Made by a program: the position numbers and the translations under genes. The notes under the pieces were generated by a model. It did no database searches. It had not been told where the DNA came from and saw only the letters and a list, made by a program, of their open reading frames with translations. From a virus, in IMG/VR virus record IMGVR_UViG_3300028548_000932, positions 1 through 22,465 of that record: a stretch of DNA of 22,465 nt. One strand, 5' to 3'. Shown here one piece after another: positions 9,334 to 12,108 of the stretch; positions within the stretch are counted from its first letter, which is position 1; the number at the start of each line of letters is the position of its first letter.

Positions 9334-9362
9334 ATTATACACATAAAATACACAAATAGCAA
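9334..9362 (-). promoter_or_regulatory. Sigma70-like promoter for the tail module
   Basis: On the minus strand TTGCTA (9357-9362, 4 of 6 consensus) is followed by 17 nt and a perfect TATAAT (9334-9339). The -10 sits inside an inverted repeat, GTATAA-T-TTATAC. It lies in the only sizeable gap of this area, after the DUF1289-like gene and before the small helical gene and the tail genes. Confidence 0.6.
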
Positions 9363-9367
9363 GAAGT

Positions 9368-9475
9368 TTATTTAGTTAACTTTTTAAAAGCTTCTTTTAT
9401 TTCTTCTATCGATCTGTTACACCCAACACAGATATTATTGTTATCTAACTTACAGACACCTACGCAGGGACTCAC
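9368..9475 (-). CDS. DUF1289-like cysteine mini-protein (35 aa)
   Basis: The frame starts at GTG 9475 and overlaps the TGA of the 246-aa gene as GTGA. It encodes 35 residues beginning MSPCVGVCKLDNNN and continuing ICVGCNRSIEEI. The four cysteines (4, 8, 16, 19) in a C-x3-C...C-x2-C layout, the SPCVGVC opening and the GC.RS.EEI stretch match the DUF1289 family of small bacterial Cys proteins, which probably bind a metal. Family members are usually longer, and here only the core remains. It is too short for common ORF cut-offs but has clear motif support and a coupled start. The role in the phage is unknown. Confidence 0.7.
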   Translation of the reverse strand: MSPCVGVCKLDNNNICVGCNRSIEEIKEAFKKLTK

Positions 9476-10212
9476 TTAGCAATACTTCTCAGGCTATCCA
9501 TAACATCATCTATTGATGGCTCTTTGGAGTTGGGCTTATGCACACATTTGTATTGCTTGGGGCAACCTATCCTAATGTCAGTAAATTCCATCTCATAAGT
9601 CTTATTTGCACCTTCATAGATACAAGCCATCTTATCTTTCCAGATTTTCTGTGATTTTAATCGGCAAGTAACATAAACTGGTTTAGTAACTAGCTTCTGC
9701 CATATCTTCTGTTGCTCAGTCCAGCCTTTACCATACACTTTACTAGAAAATGCACCAACTAGTAATACGATAAAACCAAATACTACAATAATTAAAACTA
9801 GCCACGCAACAACTTCACCAATTTGTTTTCTTAAGGCTTGTTGTTTATAAATTGTTCGTTGTCTCTCTTTTCTAATTTCACCCTCCATCTGAAGAAGTTC
9901 ATCGTAGGCATGAGGACCTATAGTTAAATTCAAGTACATCTTTAATTCGTAGCGTTGTTCTTCTAGTTTCTTTTTGGCAGAGTAGGCTTGCAGAGCCATT
10001 GTCTCAATGCTACCTGCTCCAAATACCTTGCCAAATATACTGGGGTTCTTAGCTTGCTTCTGTGCGTTGTCCACATCTGAAGCTGCTCCCATCCATCTAC
10101 TTACATCCCCTGACATCTGCTCTAAGTCTCTACCGACTGCAAATCCAGATTTAATTGCACTAAATGCTTTTGATGCAATACCGACAGCAACGCTAATAGT
10201 CAATGGGTCCAT
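9472..10212 (-). CDS. Single-pass membrane protein with extracytoplasmic Cys domain
   Basis: The protein has 246 residues. Residues 1-130 are helical and charged (AVGRDLEQMSGDVSRWMGA, ELLQMEGEIRKERQR). Residues 132-155 are one strong membrane segment (EVVAWLVLIIVVFGFIVLLVGAF). Residues 156-246 carry four cysteines (183, 197, 217, 223). The basic stretch KERQR...LRKQ before the membrane segment predicts N-inside, so the Cys region would face the periplasm and could form disulfides. The start overlaps the preceding stop (TAATG), and its own stop overlaps the GTG of the DUF1289-like gene. Homologues appear, from memory, in marine phages as hypothetical proteins next to lysis genes. A role in the envelope during lysis or infection is inference. 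Confidence 0.75.
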   Translation of the reverse strand: MDPLTISVAVGIASKAFSAIKSGFAVGRDLEQMSGDVSRWMGAASDVDNAQKQAKNPSIFGKVFGAGSIETMALQAYSAKKKLEEQRYELKMYLNLTIGPHAYDELLQMEGEIRKERQRTIYKQQALRKQIGEVVAWLVLIIVVFGFIVLLVGAFSSKVYGKGWTEQQKIWQKLVTKPVYVTCRLKSQKIWKDKMACIYEGANKTYEMEFTDIRIGCPKQYKCVHKPNSKEPSIDDVMDSLRSIAK

Positions 10213-10397
10213 TACTTTTTCCTTATGGGTTTGCAGTATGCTGTTATCTGTAAATTAGCTCCTTGCTTCTGTGGTATAGACGGTTGCCTATGTAGTCGTT
10301 CTGCAAAGTATAAGCATTTATTTATATCTTCAAAGGTTTGCGTTTGATCTATGATTCTTAACCCCATCATAAACACAAGTACAAATTCAATCATCAC
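10212..10397 (-). CDS. Small protein with hydrophobic N-terminus and two cysteines
   Basis: This is a 60-61-residue protein. The frame opens with GTG at 10397, immediately followed by ATG at 10394, which is the likelier start. The N-terminus is hydrophobic (MIEFVLVFMMGLRII), then DINKCLYFAERLHRQPS, and the C-terminus is ITAYCKPIRKK. The two cysteines are 28 and 55. It may be a membrane-anchored or exported peptide with one disulfide. The start lies inside the end of the Cys-rich 37-aa gene, so translation is probably coupled. It sits among lysis genes, but the sequence does not show a spanin lipobox or periplasmic coiled coil. Unknown function. Confidence 0.6.
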   Translation of the reverse strand: MMIEFVLVFMMGLRIIDQTQTFEDINKCLYFAERLHRQPSIPQKQGANLQITAYCKPIRKK

Positions 10398-10500
10398 CTT
10401 TTACTGCAGGCTTACATTCGCAGTGGCAATCACAATTACATTCGTCAGGATTACACTCGTAGCAAGTACAAGTGTCACAACATCTGGTTTCTATGGTCAA
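10387..10500 (-). CDS. Metallothionein-like Cys-rich peptide (37 aa, TTG start)
   Basis: A 37-residue frame begins at TTG 10500, overlaps the lysozyme stop, and ends inside the start of the next gene. GGAG lies 7 nt upstream of the TTG. A GTG six nt further upstream is an alternative start but has poor SD spacing. Ten residues are cysteine: CC at 7-8, CTC at 11-13, C16, and an unbroken CNCDCHCEC at 21-29, with one histidine in the run. Alternating CxC arrays with few aromatics are the hallmark of metallothionein-type metal-cluster peptides, though short Cys-rich phage peptides of unknown role also exist. So many cysteines in frame are unlikely by chance. Metal binding is inferred from composition alone. 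Confidence 0.6.
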   Translation of the reverse strand: MTIETRCCDTCTCYECNPDECNCDCHCECKPAVKGDD

Positions 10501-10982
10501 GTCCACTCTCCATTTTTCATTGCTAAGGATAGCTTCATAGCTCTGCCTTTTACTTGGTCTGCCCACCTAGAATCAATCATCTCTTCGCAAGCTGAGATGT
10601 AATTTACTTTTTCTATGGCTAACCACATATCCTTAAATTTCATTAATCTTGGAACACCCATATTAAATGCCATGTCTATAAGTACCATTTGTCTTACAGC
10701 ATTTACCTGATTTACTATTGGCTTGTTGGCAAGGAGTTCTTTTTCTACGATGGCTATGTCATTCATGCAAAGATAATACGCTTCTTCTTCTGTAAGACCC
10801 ACTTCGTATATTTCTTCGGTGGTCTTATTCATGTAGGATAGCTCACCGTCTGTGATACCCCTATCCTGCAAGTTTCTGCCAATTCCCACCGTATCTATAC
10901 CTAAGTGGTCTTGGTAGACGTTAAGTCGTAGACCTTCATGTAAGGCAATCATCTTGACTAGTTCATCAGCATCGTATTTCAT
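10497..10982 (-). CDS. Endolysin, T4-type lysozyme (GH24)
   Basis: This is a 161-residue muramidase that cleaves the MurNAc-GlcNAc bond of peptidoglycan during host lysis. The T4 lysozyme triad is complete with identical spacing: E16 in LHEGLRL, D25 in YQDHLG and T31 in DTVGIGRN (E11, D20 and T26 in T4). The C-terminal domain shows VLIDMAFNMGVPRL and SRWADQVKGRAMKL, typical of GH24. No signal peptide or signal-anchor is seen, so it should depend on the holin at 11337-11729 for release. ATG 10982 has AAGG upstream and lies 2 nt after the previous stop. The stop overlaps the TTG start of the Cys-rich peptide. Identification is secure. Confidence 0.95.
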   Translation of the reverse strand: MKYDADELVKMIALHEGLRLNVYQDHLGIDTVGIGRNLQDRGITDGELSYMNKTTEEIYEVGLTEEEAYYLCMNDIAIVEKELLANKPIVNQVNAVRQMVLIDMAFNMGVPRLMKFKDMWLAIEKVNYISACEEMIDSRWADQVKGRAMKLSLAMKNGEWT

Positions 10983-10984
10983 TG

Positions 10985-11161
10985 TTAAACCTTTTTCTTT
11001 TTCTTAGGAAAGCCTGCTTGCATATTAGCATATGCTTTAGGAGATATAGTTGACTTCTTCTTAGTAGCACTGTCACCAGCCTTCTTCTTCTGGTTAATGT
11101 TGTAATACAAACCCTTCTTAGCTGTTTTACCAGACTTAGTTTTGTGTGTTCCTACTGCCAT
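10985..11161 (-). CDS. Lysine-rich small protein (58 aa)
   Basis: A frame found by translating the gap upstream of the lysozyme encodes 58 residues: MAVGTHKTKSGKTAKKG, then LYYNINQKKKAG, a KKKSTISPKAYANMQAGFP stretch and a terminal KKKKKV. More than a quarter of residues are lysine and there is no cysteine. The ISPKAYANMQAGFP block resembles, from memory, a conserved small protein of marine phages. AGGG lies about 9 nt upstream of ATG 11161. It starts 5 nt after the stop of the 56-aa gene and ends 2 nt before the lysozyme start. A nucleic-acid-binding or virion DNA-condensing role is suggested only by charge. Confidence 0.7.
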   Translation of the reverse strand: MAVGTHKTKSGKTAKKGLYYNINQKKKAGDSATKKKSTISPKAYANMQAGFPKKKKKV

Positions 11162-11166
11162 TGTCT

Positions 11167-11337
11167 TTAACCCTTCTTTGCTTTAGCTTGTGCTGTTTTA
11201 GATAAGTCCTTCATGTGAGATAAAGGTTTGCTCGTCTTAGTGTGAGTTTTGCCAGTATGCAAAGTGCCATCCTTCATCTTGTGTGATGCACCTGTATACA
11301 ACGTTCCATTTTTTAGATAATGCTTTACGCCCTTCAT
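11167..11337 (-). CDS. His/Lys-rich small protein with internal repeat (56 aa)
   Basis: The frame starts at ATG 11337, overlapping the holin stop as TAATG, with GGGGAAG upstream. It encodes 56 residues beginning MKGVKHYLKNG. Two imperfect units follow one another, KNGTLYTGASHK and KDGTLHTGKTHT, then SKPLSHMKDLSKTAQ. The unit [KN]-[DN]-G-T-L-[YH]-T-G-x-[ST]-H recalls short conserved marine phage proteins. The repeats place five histidines and many lysines on a probable beta-turn scaffold. Neighbouring small genes on both sides are also basic. Function unknown; coding status rests on coupling, SD and repeat pattern. Confidence 0.65.
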   Translation of the reverse strand: MKGVKHYLKNGTLYTGASHKMKDGTLHTGKTHTKTSKPLSHMKDLSKTAQAKAKKG

Positions 11338-11729: not shown

Positions 11730-11836
11730 TATACTCTCCCTTGACTCCTGTGCAACTGATTTACGTAACGTCTGTAAAAGCTGTTGCCTATTCTGTTAAA
11801 TAATTTAAATAACTTAAAATTAATTGCTCTTAACAT
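11729..11836 (-). CDS. Cationic amphipathic 35-aa peptide upstream of holin
   Basis: The frame fills the 100-nt gap before the holin exactly. Its ATG overlaps the stop of the basic 92-aa gene (AATGTTAA) and its TAA overlaps the holin ATG (TAATG). It encodes MLRAINFKLFKLFNRIG followed by NSFYRRYVNQLHRSQGRV. The pattern LFKLF, regularly spaced Lys and Arg, and no acidic residue predict a positively charged amphipathic helix. I recall similar small frames in marine phages, but could not verify this. Position suggests a membrane-active or holin-modulating peptide, which is inference. Confidence 0.55.
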   Translation of the reverse strand: MLRAINFKLFKLFNRIGNSFYRRYVNQLHRSQGRV

Positions 11837-12108
11837 TTCCATCTTTTTCTAGCCTGTCTTAATCGGCTGTTAGGGTCTTTTGCTGCTTTAGGAAACTTCT
11901 TCATTTGCCCTAAGCTTCTTGCACAATAAGACTTTCTACGTTTAGCAGCTTTGCTTCCAGCCTTTACTTTGCCAGTTACTGCTGTCTTTAGTTTACTTCC
12001 GGGATTGTCCTTCTTGTACTTAGCCACACCTTTGGCTGTCATACCTGCACCTTTTTTGGTTGGGCGTTTATGACCACCTCCAATTGTATGACCTTTCATA
12101 CCTCCCAT
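11830..12108 (-). CDS. Small basic protein (DUF6321-like)
   Basis: This is a 92-residue, strongly basic protein. The N-terminus is Gly/His/Lys-rich (GGGHKRPTKKGAGMTAKG). Then come VAKYKKDNPGSKLKTAV, RRKSYCARSLGQMKK and a tail with PNSRLRQARKRWKC. The 'GlsAKG..kY....pGS.Lk.av', 'R..SyCaR..G' and final RKRW.C blocks resemble the DUF6321-type small proteins common in cyanophages and other marine phages, with unknown function; the family name is from memory. The start ATG 12108 has AGGGG upstream. A second ATG three codons later has no well-spaced SD. Possible role: DNA- or RNA-binding virion protein. Confidence 0.75.
   Translation of the reverse strand: MGGMKGHTIGGGHKRPTKKGAGMTAKGVAKYKKDNPGSKLKTAVTGKVKAGSKAAKRRKSYCARSLGQMKKFPKAAKDPNSRLRQARKRWKC

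Follow-up and report, generated by a model that had tools for sequence, protein, structure and literature searches.

Cysteine-bearing genes beside the lysis genes of HMO-2011-type phages: a conserved block with a candidate metallothionein-like peptide

Introduction

Four consecutive and overlapping genes, each of them encoding a cysteine-bearing protein, follow the lysozyme gene on the minus strand of an uncultured-virus DNA record (IMG/VR record IMGVR_UViG_3300028548_000932, positions 1 to 22,465; this whole stretch of 22,465 nucleotides is referred to as the window). In the order in which they are read, we call these genes cys37, p61, tm246 and the DUF1289 gene (Table 1). The initial annotation suggested that their products could be a single metal or thiol-disulfide system residing in the envelope of the host cell. 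The question that this locus raises is whether the four proteins indeed work together, and in which compartment of the cell they might do so.

Results

Four overlapping genes and their cysteine content

All four open reading frames are present at the positions given in Table 1, and direct reading of the minus strand confirmed that they form one uninterrupted, overlapping run. The stop codon of the lysozyme gene and the start codon of cys37 overlap in TTGA (ACTTGACC). At the following junction (GTGATGATTGA), p61 can start either at a GTG codon (61 aa) or at a conserved ATG codon one codon further in (60 aa), and both of these starts overlap the end of cys37. The p61 stop and the tm246 start share one nucleotide (TAATG), while the tm246 stop and the start of the DUF1289 gene share four (GTGA). 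The TTG start codon of cys37 is supported by a relative (locus L002) that carries ATG at the equivalent position.

Table 1. Features of the gene block and its surroundings in the window.
Feature	Position	Strand	Evidence or remark
Phage lysozyme, 161 aa, directly upstream of the block	10497..10982	-	Pfam Phage_lysozyme E=1e-9; PHROG endolysin E=1e-17
cys37, 37-aa metallothionein-like peptide, TTG start	10387..10500	-	Family with 115 distinct members in environmental phages
Conserved core of cys37, CDTCTCYECNPDECNCDCH	10423..10479	-	Family consensus C[DE]TCECY[DE]CDC[DE][DE]C[NTS]C[DE]CH
p61, 60 aa from ATG (61 aa from GTG at 10397)	10212..10394	-	Alignment, AlphaFold2 model, HMO-2011 gp62 homologue
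tm246, 246 aa, single TM	9472..10212	-	Family phrog_32327
Four-Cys C-terminal tail of tm246	9475..9720	-	Cys183, 197, 217, 223; optional extension in the family
DUF1289 protein, 35 aa, GTG start, four Cys	9368..9475	-	Pfam PF06945 E=1.8e-12
Promoter-like site TTGCTA-17-TATAAT, after the block	9334..9362	-	10/12 consensus match

Ten of the 37 residues of cys37 are cysteines, as are 2 of 61 in p61, 4 of 246 in tm246 and 4 of 35 in the DUF1289 protein. Taken together, the block contains 20 cysteines in 379 residues (5.3%), compared with 25 in 6698 residues (0.37%) for the 17 other tabulated proteins of the window. This excess stems mostly from cys37 and the DUF1289 protein; tm246, with 1.6% cysteine, does not rise above two other window proteins (153 aa, 2.0%; 92 aa, 2.2%). 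Judged from the sequences, the cysteine pattern of the block exceeds chance, given the conservation of these residues in homologues and the family match of the DUF1289 protein.

The promoter-like site in the gap past the DUF1289 gene is plausible as the start of a tail-gene transcript; it is weak by itself since four such sites were found in the region where 8.8 are expected by chance. Small basic proteins, one of them with a match to DUF6321, are encoded around the holin gene (window positions 10985-11337 and 11830-12108, minus strand), and other small basic genes recur next to the lysis genes of relatives.

The block is carried by relatives of HMO-2011-type phages

Part of the portal gene of the window shares 73% DNA identity with that of the pelagiphage HTVC033P, and block-bearing contigs match the roseophages CRP-1 and CRP-345 in the terminase/portal region. 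The isolate with a p61 homologue is Puniceispirillum phage HMO-2011. Judged by these matches, the phages that carry the block are related to the HMO-2011 type, the group to which these isolates belong (PMC9038755). A published study describes HMO-2011-type phages as dominant and widely distributed marine phages (PMC9038755).

Gene order and co-occurrence across loci

Loci were gathered via five handles: tm246, the pattern of the Cys peptide, p61, DUF1289 and the short form of tm. Related phages are not independent, and each scan covered the best 80 loci or the matches listed, so that the rates reported here are descriptive. Pooling the tm246, Cys-pattern and p61 handles yielded 153 distinct p61 loci among the matches listed, and 127 of them have the order Cys peptide, p61, tm. 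Within these 127 loci, again among the matches listed, the block precedes the holin and lysozyme genes in 65 cases and follows the lysozyme gene in 35; lysozymes from the former arrangement share only some 30% identity with the window lysozyme. Hence, the trio can sit on either side of the lysis genes without a change in its order.

The initial annotation had asked whether the genes co-occur as a block across marine phages, and they do: among the matches listed, loci anchored on p61 contain the Cys peptide in 49 of 53 cases, tm in 52 and DUF1289 in 44. Similarly, loci anchored on the short tm form contain the Cys peptide (38/46), p61 (42/46) and DUF1289 (35/46; among the matches listed). At loci anchored on the tm246 type, the Cys peptide is present in 12 of the 45 and missing from 33, and loci anchored on DUF1289 have tm in 43 of 48 cases and the Cys peptide in 26 (both among the matches listed). 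The dependence therefore forms a hierarchy in which the Cys peptide accompanies p61 and p61 accompanies tm, whereas tm and DUF1289 also occur without the others. Independent occurrence, which the initial annotation had regarded as evidence against a joint system, was consequently found for two of the four genes, since tm frequently lacks the Cys peptide and DUF1289 lies beside a ribonucleotide reductase gene in CRP isolates (see below); cys37 and p61 are rarely apart.

When the region directly upstream of tm is scored, p61 and the Cys peptide are found together at 49 loci, p61 only at 4, the Cys peptide only at 2 and neither at 32 (odds ratio 196; among the matches listed). Loci fetched with p61 carry a Cys-rich peptide gene directly upstream in 65 of 73 cases; it is missing from the other 8 (among the matches listed) and the Cys peptide is thus not essential. 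In some phages that lack it, p61 directly follows the lysozyme gene (GAGTTATGATTG) or a holin-like gene (TAATGATTG). These direct junctions mark the Cys gene as a clean, removable cassette of about 110 nt that is tightly tied to p61.

A search of isolate phages with p61 gave a match in HMO-2011 only (37% identity). The gene order there is p61 (gp62), msmA, tm (gp60), gp59, the holin-like gp58, gp57 and the lysozyme gene gp56. The msmA-like auxiliary gene, which encodes an oxygenase subunit (PF00848), sits exactly between the p61 homologue and tm and splits the block (L433 3486-5255, gp62-gp60), from which it follows that neighbours in this region can be unrelated. The 7.2-kb stretch surrounding gp62 yielded no Cys peptide. 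Divergent p61 relatives with four cysteines lie after tm or after DUF1289, not before tm, and no Cys peptide is present there (L053-L061, L020-L025, L065).

The Cys peptide family

The cys37 family comprises 115 distinct phage peptides with the core C-[DE]-T-C-[ETK]-C-Y-[DE]-C-D-(C)-[DE]-[DE]-C-[NTS]-C-[DE]-C-H. Cysteines 1, 4, 6, 9, 14, 16 and 18 of this core, together with Thr3, Tyr7 and His19, are invariant in all 115 members. Our first search pattern contained the seven core cysteines, Tyr7 and His19; Thr3 was part of no search pattern and is nonetheless invariant. As conservation among hits retrieved by the pattern alone would be circular, we rechecked it in the loci fetched with p61, and all 65 upstream peptides from these loci fit the strict motif. 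Position 11 of the core is a cysteine in 89 of the 115 peptides and a proline in the window member, which has one extra cysteine before the core and two after it, bringing the total to ten.

The cysteines of cys37 are spaced C-x2-C-x-C-x2-C-x4-C-x-C-x-C-H, and a CxxCx pentad repeat (CETCE-CYECD-CEECN-CDCH) runs through the family. Seven or eight cysteines and a histidine are kept within 19 residues despite synonymous changes of the cysteine codons (TGT/TGC). The spacers are acidic, with a mean core charge of -6.5. Being short, with cysteine making up about a quarter of its residues in CxC and CxxC motifs, cys37 has the make-up of a metallothionein. It found no match in Pfam (up to E=10), NCBIfam (up to E=1) or PHROG, the bacterial metallothionein profiles of Pfam and NCBIfam included, nor did it match solved metallothioneins or other PDB entries. 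No export signal was seen in its sequence.

A cellular origin of the Cys peptide was rejected: 84,980 genomes yielded five hits, all of them low-complexity Cys-rich or chance frames. A tblastn search of isolate phages with the Cys peptide found none; the low-complexity filter of BLAST may mask such a peptide, and we therefore used p61 as its proxy in isolates. The C-terminal tails of the family differ. Eleven of the 115 peptides end in QLELDF- or QLDLDF-like residues that resemble the bacterial sliding-clamp binding motif (L089, L115, L117, L135, L181, L195), and other tails are of the GVPV, KGND and HNDR types.

p61 is predicted to be a soluble protein

In the 60-aa numbering, the two cysteines of p61 are Cys27 and Cys54. 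An alignment of 32 diverse homologues, some as low as 21% identical, shows no exception to either of them, and gp62 of HMO-2011 retains the pair. The AlphaFold2 model (pLDDT 92, pTM 0.72) is a compact beta-beta-alpha-beta fold in which the two cysteines stand 27 residues apart in the chain. Dsb-like periplasmic relays use an exported thioredoxin-fold protein with a CxxC motif, or a partner with a relay Cys pair; by sequence, none of the four block proteins is an exported CxxC protein. The hydrophobic first residues are modelled as a beta-strand, not as a signal peptide. On the strength of this model p61 is predicted to be soluble, and we rejected it as an exported or membrane protein. No PDB entry was matched reliably in fold searches (best Z 5.5; Foldseek E above 1), which otherwise picked up unnamed small viral proteins only; no named family was found in the libraries searched.

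The cysteine tail of tm246 is an optional domain

tm246 has a single TM segment at about residues 134-156, with a helical domain on its N-terminal side and a beta domain on its C-terminal side. It matches phrog_32327 over residues 9-152 (E=3e-5), a family that is also matched by a 161-aa tm homologue (2e-11) and by HMO-2011 gp60 (E=3e-89). The model of tm246 is of low confidence (pLDDT 73, pTM 0.38), and its helical-bundle matches at Z of about 10 are uninformative. The many Lys and Arg residues N-terminal of the TM segment, and the helical domain before it, suggest an N-in/C-out topology.

The four tail cysteines are invariant in 75 of 75 tm246-type homologues while the TM segment and the linker vary, and this invariance, together with the modelled beta domain, indicates that the tail is a real domain. 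With the tail as the sole query, no homologue was found in isolate phages. Most block members carry tm forms of 141-177 aa that end just past the TM segment. The expectation that the cysteines of p61 and tm246 are conserved was therefore borne out for p61 and for tm246-type proteins, whereas the tail as such is missing from most members of the block. Of 87 distinct tm loci, 43 encode the tail and 44 do not; the Cys peptide is present at 15 of the former and at 36 of the latter (Fisher p=1e-5; loci not independent, among the matches listed). A joint thiol system predicts the opposite, and the lower frequency of the tail where the Cys peptide occurs argues against it. From its sequence, the tail is probably a separate, optional periplasmic domain with two disulfides.

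tm246 was rejected as a spanin or holin on account of its topology. Spanins have an N-terminal TM segment or a lipobox followed by a periplasmic domain that spans the distance from inner to outer membrane; tm246 has a long helical domain before its TM segment, and p61 is predicted to be soluble and has no lipobox. In CRP-1, gp54 (L280 4870-5211), annotated as hypothetical and encoded right after the endolysin, has a lipobox-like LSSC near its start and a hydrophobic segment near its end, and looks like a unimolecular spanin.

The DUF1289 protein

The 35-aa protein scores 47.3 bits against PF06945 (Pfam gathering cut-off 27) and hence belongs to this family. Its four cysteines are invariant in the alignment of homologues, and no export signal was seen in the sequence. 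Unannotated DUF1289 genes lie outside the block, right after the ribonucleotide reductase gene, in CRP-1, CRP-345 and CRP-207; in CRP-207 the gene is placed between ribonucleotide reductase and glutaredoxin, and in CRP-1 it is far from tm. These roseophage proteins (L281 2001-2156; L437 1201-1332; L440 1201-1332) are possible redox partners of ribonucleotide reductase. Screens of overexpressed Escherichia coli genes for resistance to H2O2 and to HOCl both picked up YdhL, a DUF1289 protein (PMC8228696). Both these screens and the ribonucleotide reductase and glutaredoxin neighbours favour a general thiol or oxidant role. We rejected an inherent link of DUF1289 to lysis: it has an amidase neighbour in Oceanospirillum phage GJ44 and no annotated lysis gene beside it in the other isolates examined.

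Discussion

Our data portray the block as a core pair of p61 and tm beside the lysis genes, in front of which cys37 can be inserted. The pair qualifies as the core since it is found next to lysis genes in the cultured phage HMO-2011 as well. We consider it about as likely as not that, within this arrangement, cys37 acts as a cytosolic metallothionein-like buffer. The peptide would be made late in infection alongside the lysis proteins, remain in the cytosol and be unfolded when made. With its seven to ten cysteines and one histidine, it may then wrap soft metal ions (Zn, Cu(I) or similar), thereby buffering metal and supplying a thiol sink late in infection. p61 is perhaps its partner. The DUF1289 protein, an addition found in many members, would be a small protein of the cytosol whose four cysteines plausibly serve in thiol or oxidant protection, and the tail of tm246 would have a function apart from that of the Cys peptide, as an optional periplasmic domain held by disulfides. 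The acidic spacers, the lack of a family match for the Cys peptide and the absence of the cassette from some phages speak against the buffer reading.

The strongest rival casts the Cys peptide as a small zinc-binding regulator that acts on a host or phage protein, either as an adaptor or as an inhibitor, with p61 as its target or co-factor, so that the pair would alter a host process before lysis. Its linkage to p61 is very tight, the invariant Thr3 and Tyr7 and the acidic spacers amount to more conservation than a pure buffer requires, and four alternative C-terminal tails could confer partners. However, the cysteines are packed too densely into 19 residues for separate Zn sites and fit a shared metal-thiolate cluster, and the peptide has no solved relative; we consider this alternative doubtful. 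It is unlikely that the block merely reflects unrelated small late genes packed by the lysis cassette, each of them Cys-rich for its own reason. Independent occurrence of tm and DUF1289 and the position of msmA in HMO-2011 would fit such packing, but cys37 and p61 are rarely apart, and the order of the trio is the same on either side of the holin and lysozyme genes.

Least probable is the proposal that the four proteins jointly make up a metal hand-over or thiol-disulfide relay in the host envelope that sets the timing of lysis: it can draw on the conserved adjacency, the conserved cysteines in all four proteins and the nearby holin and lysozyme genes, but the tm tail is absent from most block members and rarer with the Cys peptide, the DUF1289 gene of CRP isolates neighbours ribonucleotide reductase, HMO-2011 p61 keeps its cysteines with no Cys peptide found nearby, and three of the proteins have no export signal. 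As the N-terminus of p61 is a predicted beta-strand, these three (cys37, p61 and the DUF1289 protein) are left with no visible route to the envelope. Of the original proposal, the block itself, its conserved cysteines and a metal reading suited to cys37 are supported; a single shared system in the envelope is not, and the four genes probably do not constitute one such system.

We tentatively advance a broader idea, namely that a widespread metallothionein-like family, so far seen only in phages, absent from current family libraries and placed in the lysis neighbourhood of HMO-2011-type phages, governs the metal or thiol state of the cell as it dies and links metal release or the timing of lysis to p61 and tm. 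A conserved late-gene metal-thiolate peptide would mean that phages supply their own metal buffer. This would matter for what becomes of Zn, Cu and Cd when viruses lyse cells in the ocean, and for the way in which lysis is prepared in streamlined hosts, SAR116, SAR11 and roseobacters among them.

How does the block compare with known systems? tm246 shares with the isolate proteins of phrog_32327 (HMO-2011 gp60; CRP-1 gp58) the helical N-terminal domain, the TM segment and a place near the holin and endolysin genes; these proteins lack a four-Cys C-terminal domain, and tm246 has an extra one. The p61 homologue of HMO-2011 (gp62; AFV50593.1) retains both cysteines and lies upstream of tm and the lysis genes, but is longer (76 aa), is followed by msmA and has no detected Cys peptide around it. 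The 35-aa DUF1289 protein has in common with PF06945 and YdhL the four-Cys motif C-x3-C...C-x2-C; it comprises only the Cys part and a short helix, and its gene lies in the block in the window versus beside ribonucleotide reductase (and glutaredoxin) in CRP phages.

Metallothioneins, whether bacterial (SmtA/PmtA), fungal or animal, are very short, Cys-dominated proteins with CxC and CxxC motifs and a His adjoining the Cys cluster, and most of those known have spacers rich in Lys and Ser. cys37 resembles them in its length, in the dominance of cysteine, in its CxC and CxxC motifs and in the His next to its Cys cluster. It differs in having no sequence match to them, in its strong acidity, with acidic spacers throughout its family in place of Lys/Ser-rich ones, in its CxxCx pentad spacing and in being carried by phages beside lysis genes. 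We found no paper on a phage-encoded metallothionein in the open-access literature. Metallothionein-like peptides are known as a kind; this phage family and its setting at the side of the lysis genes are new.
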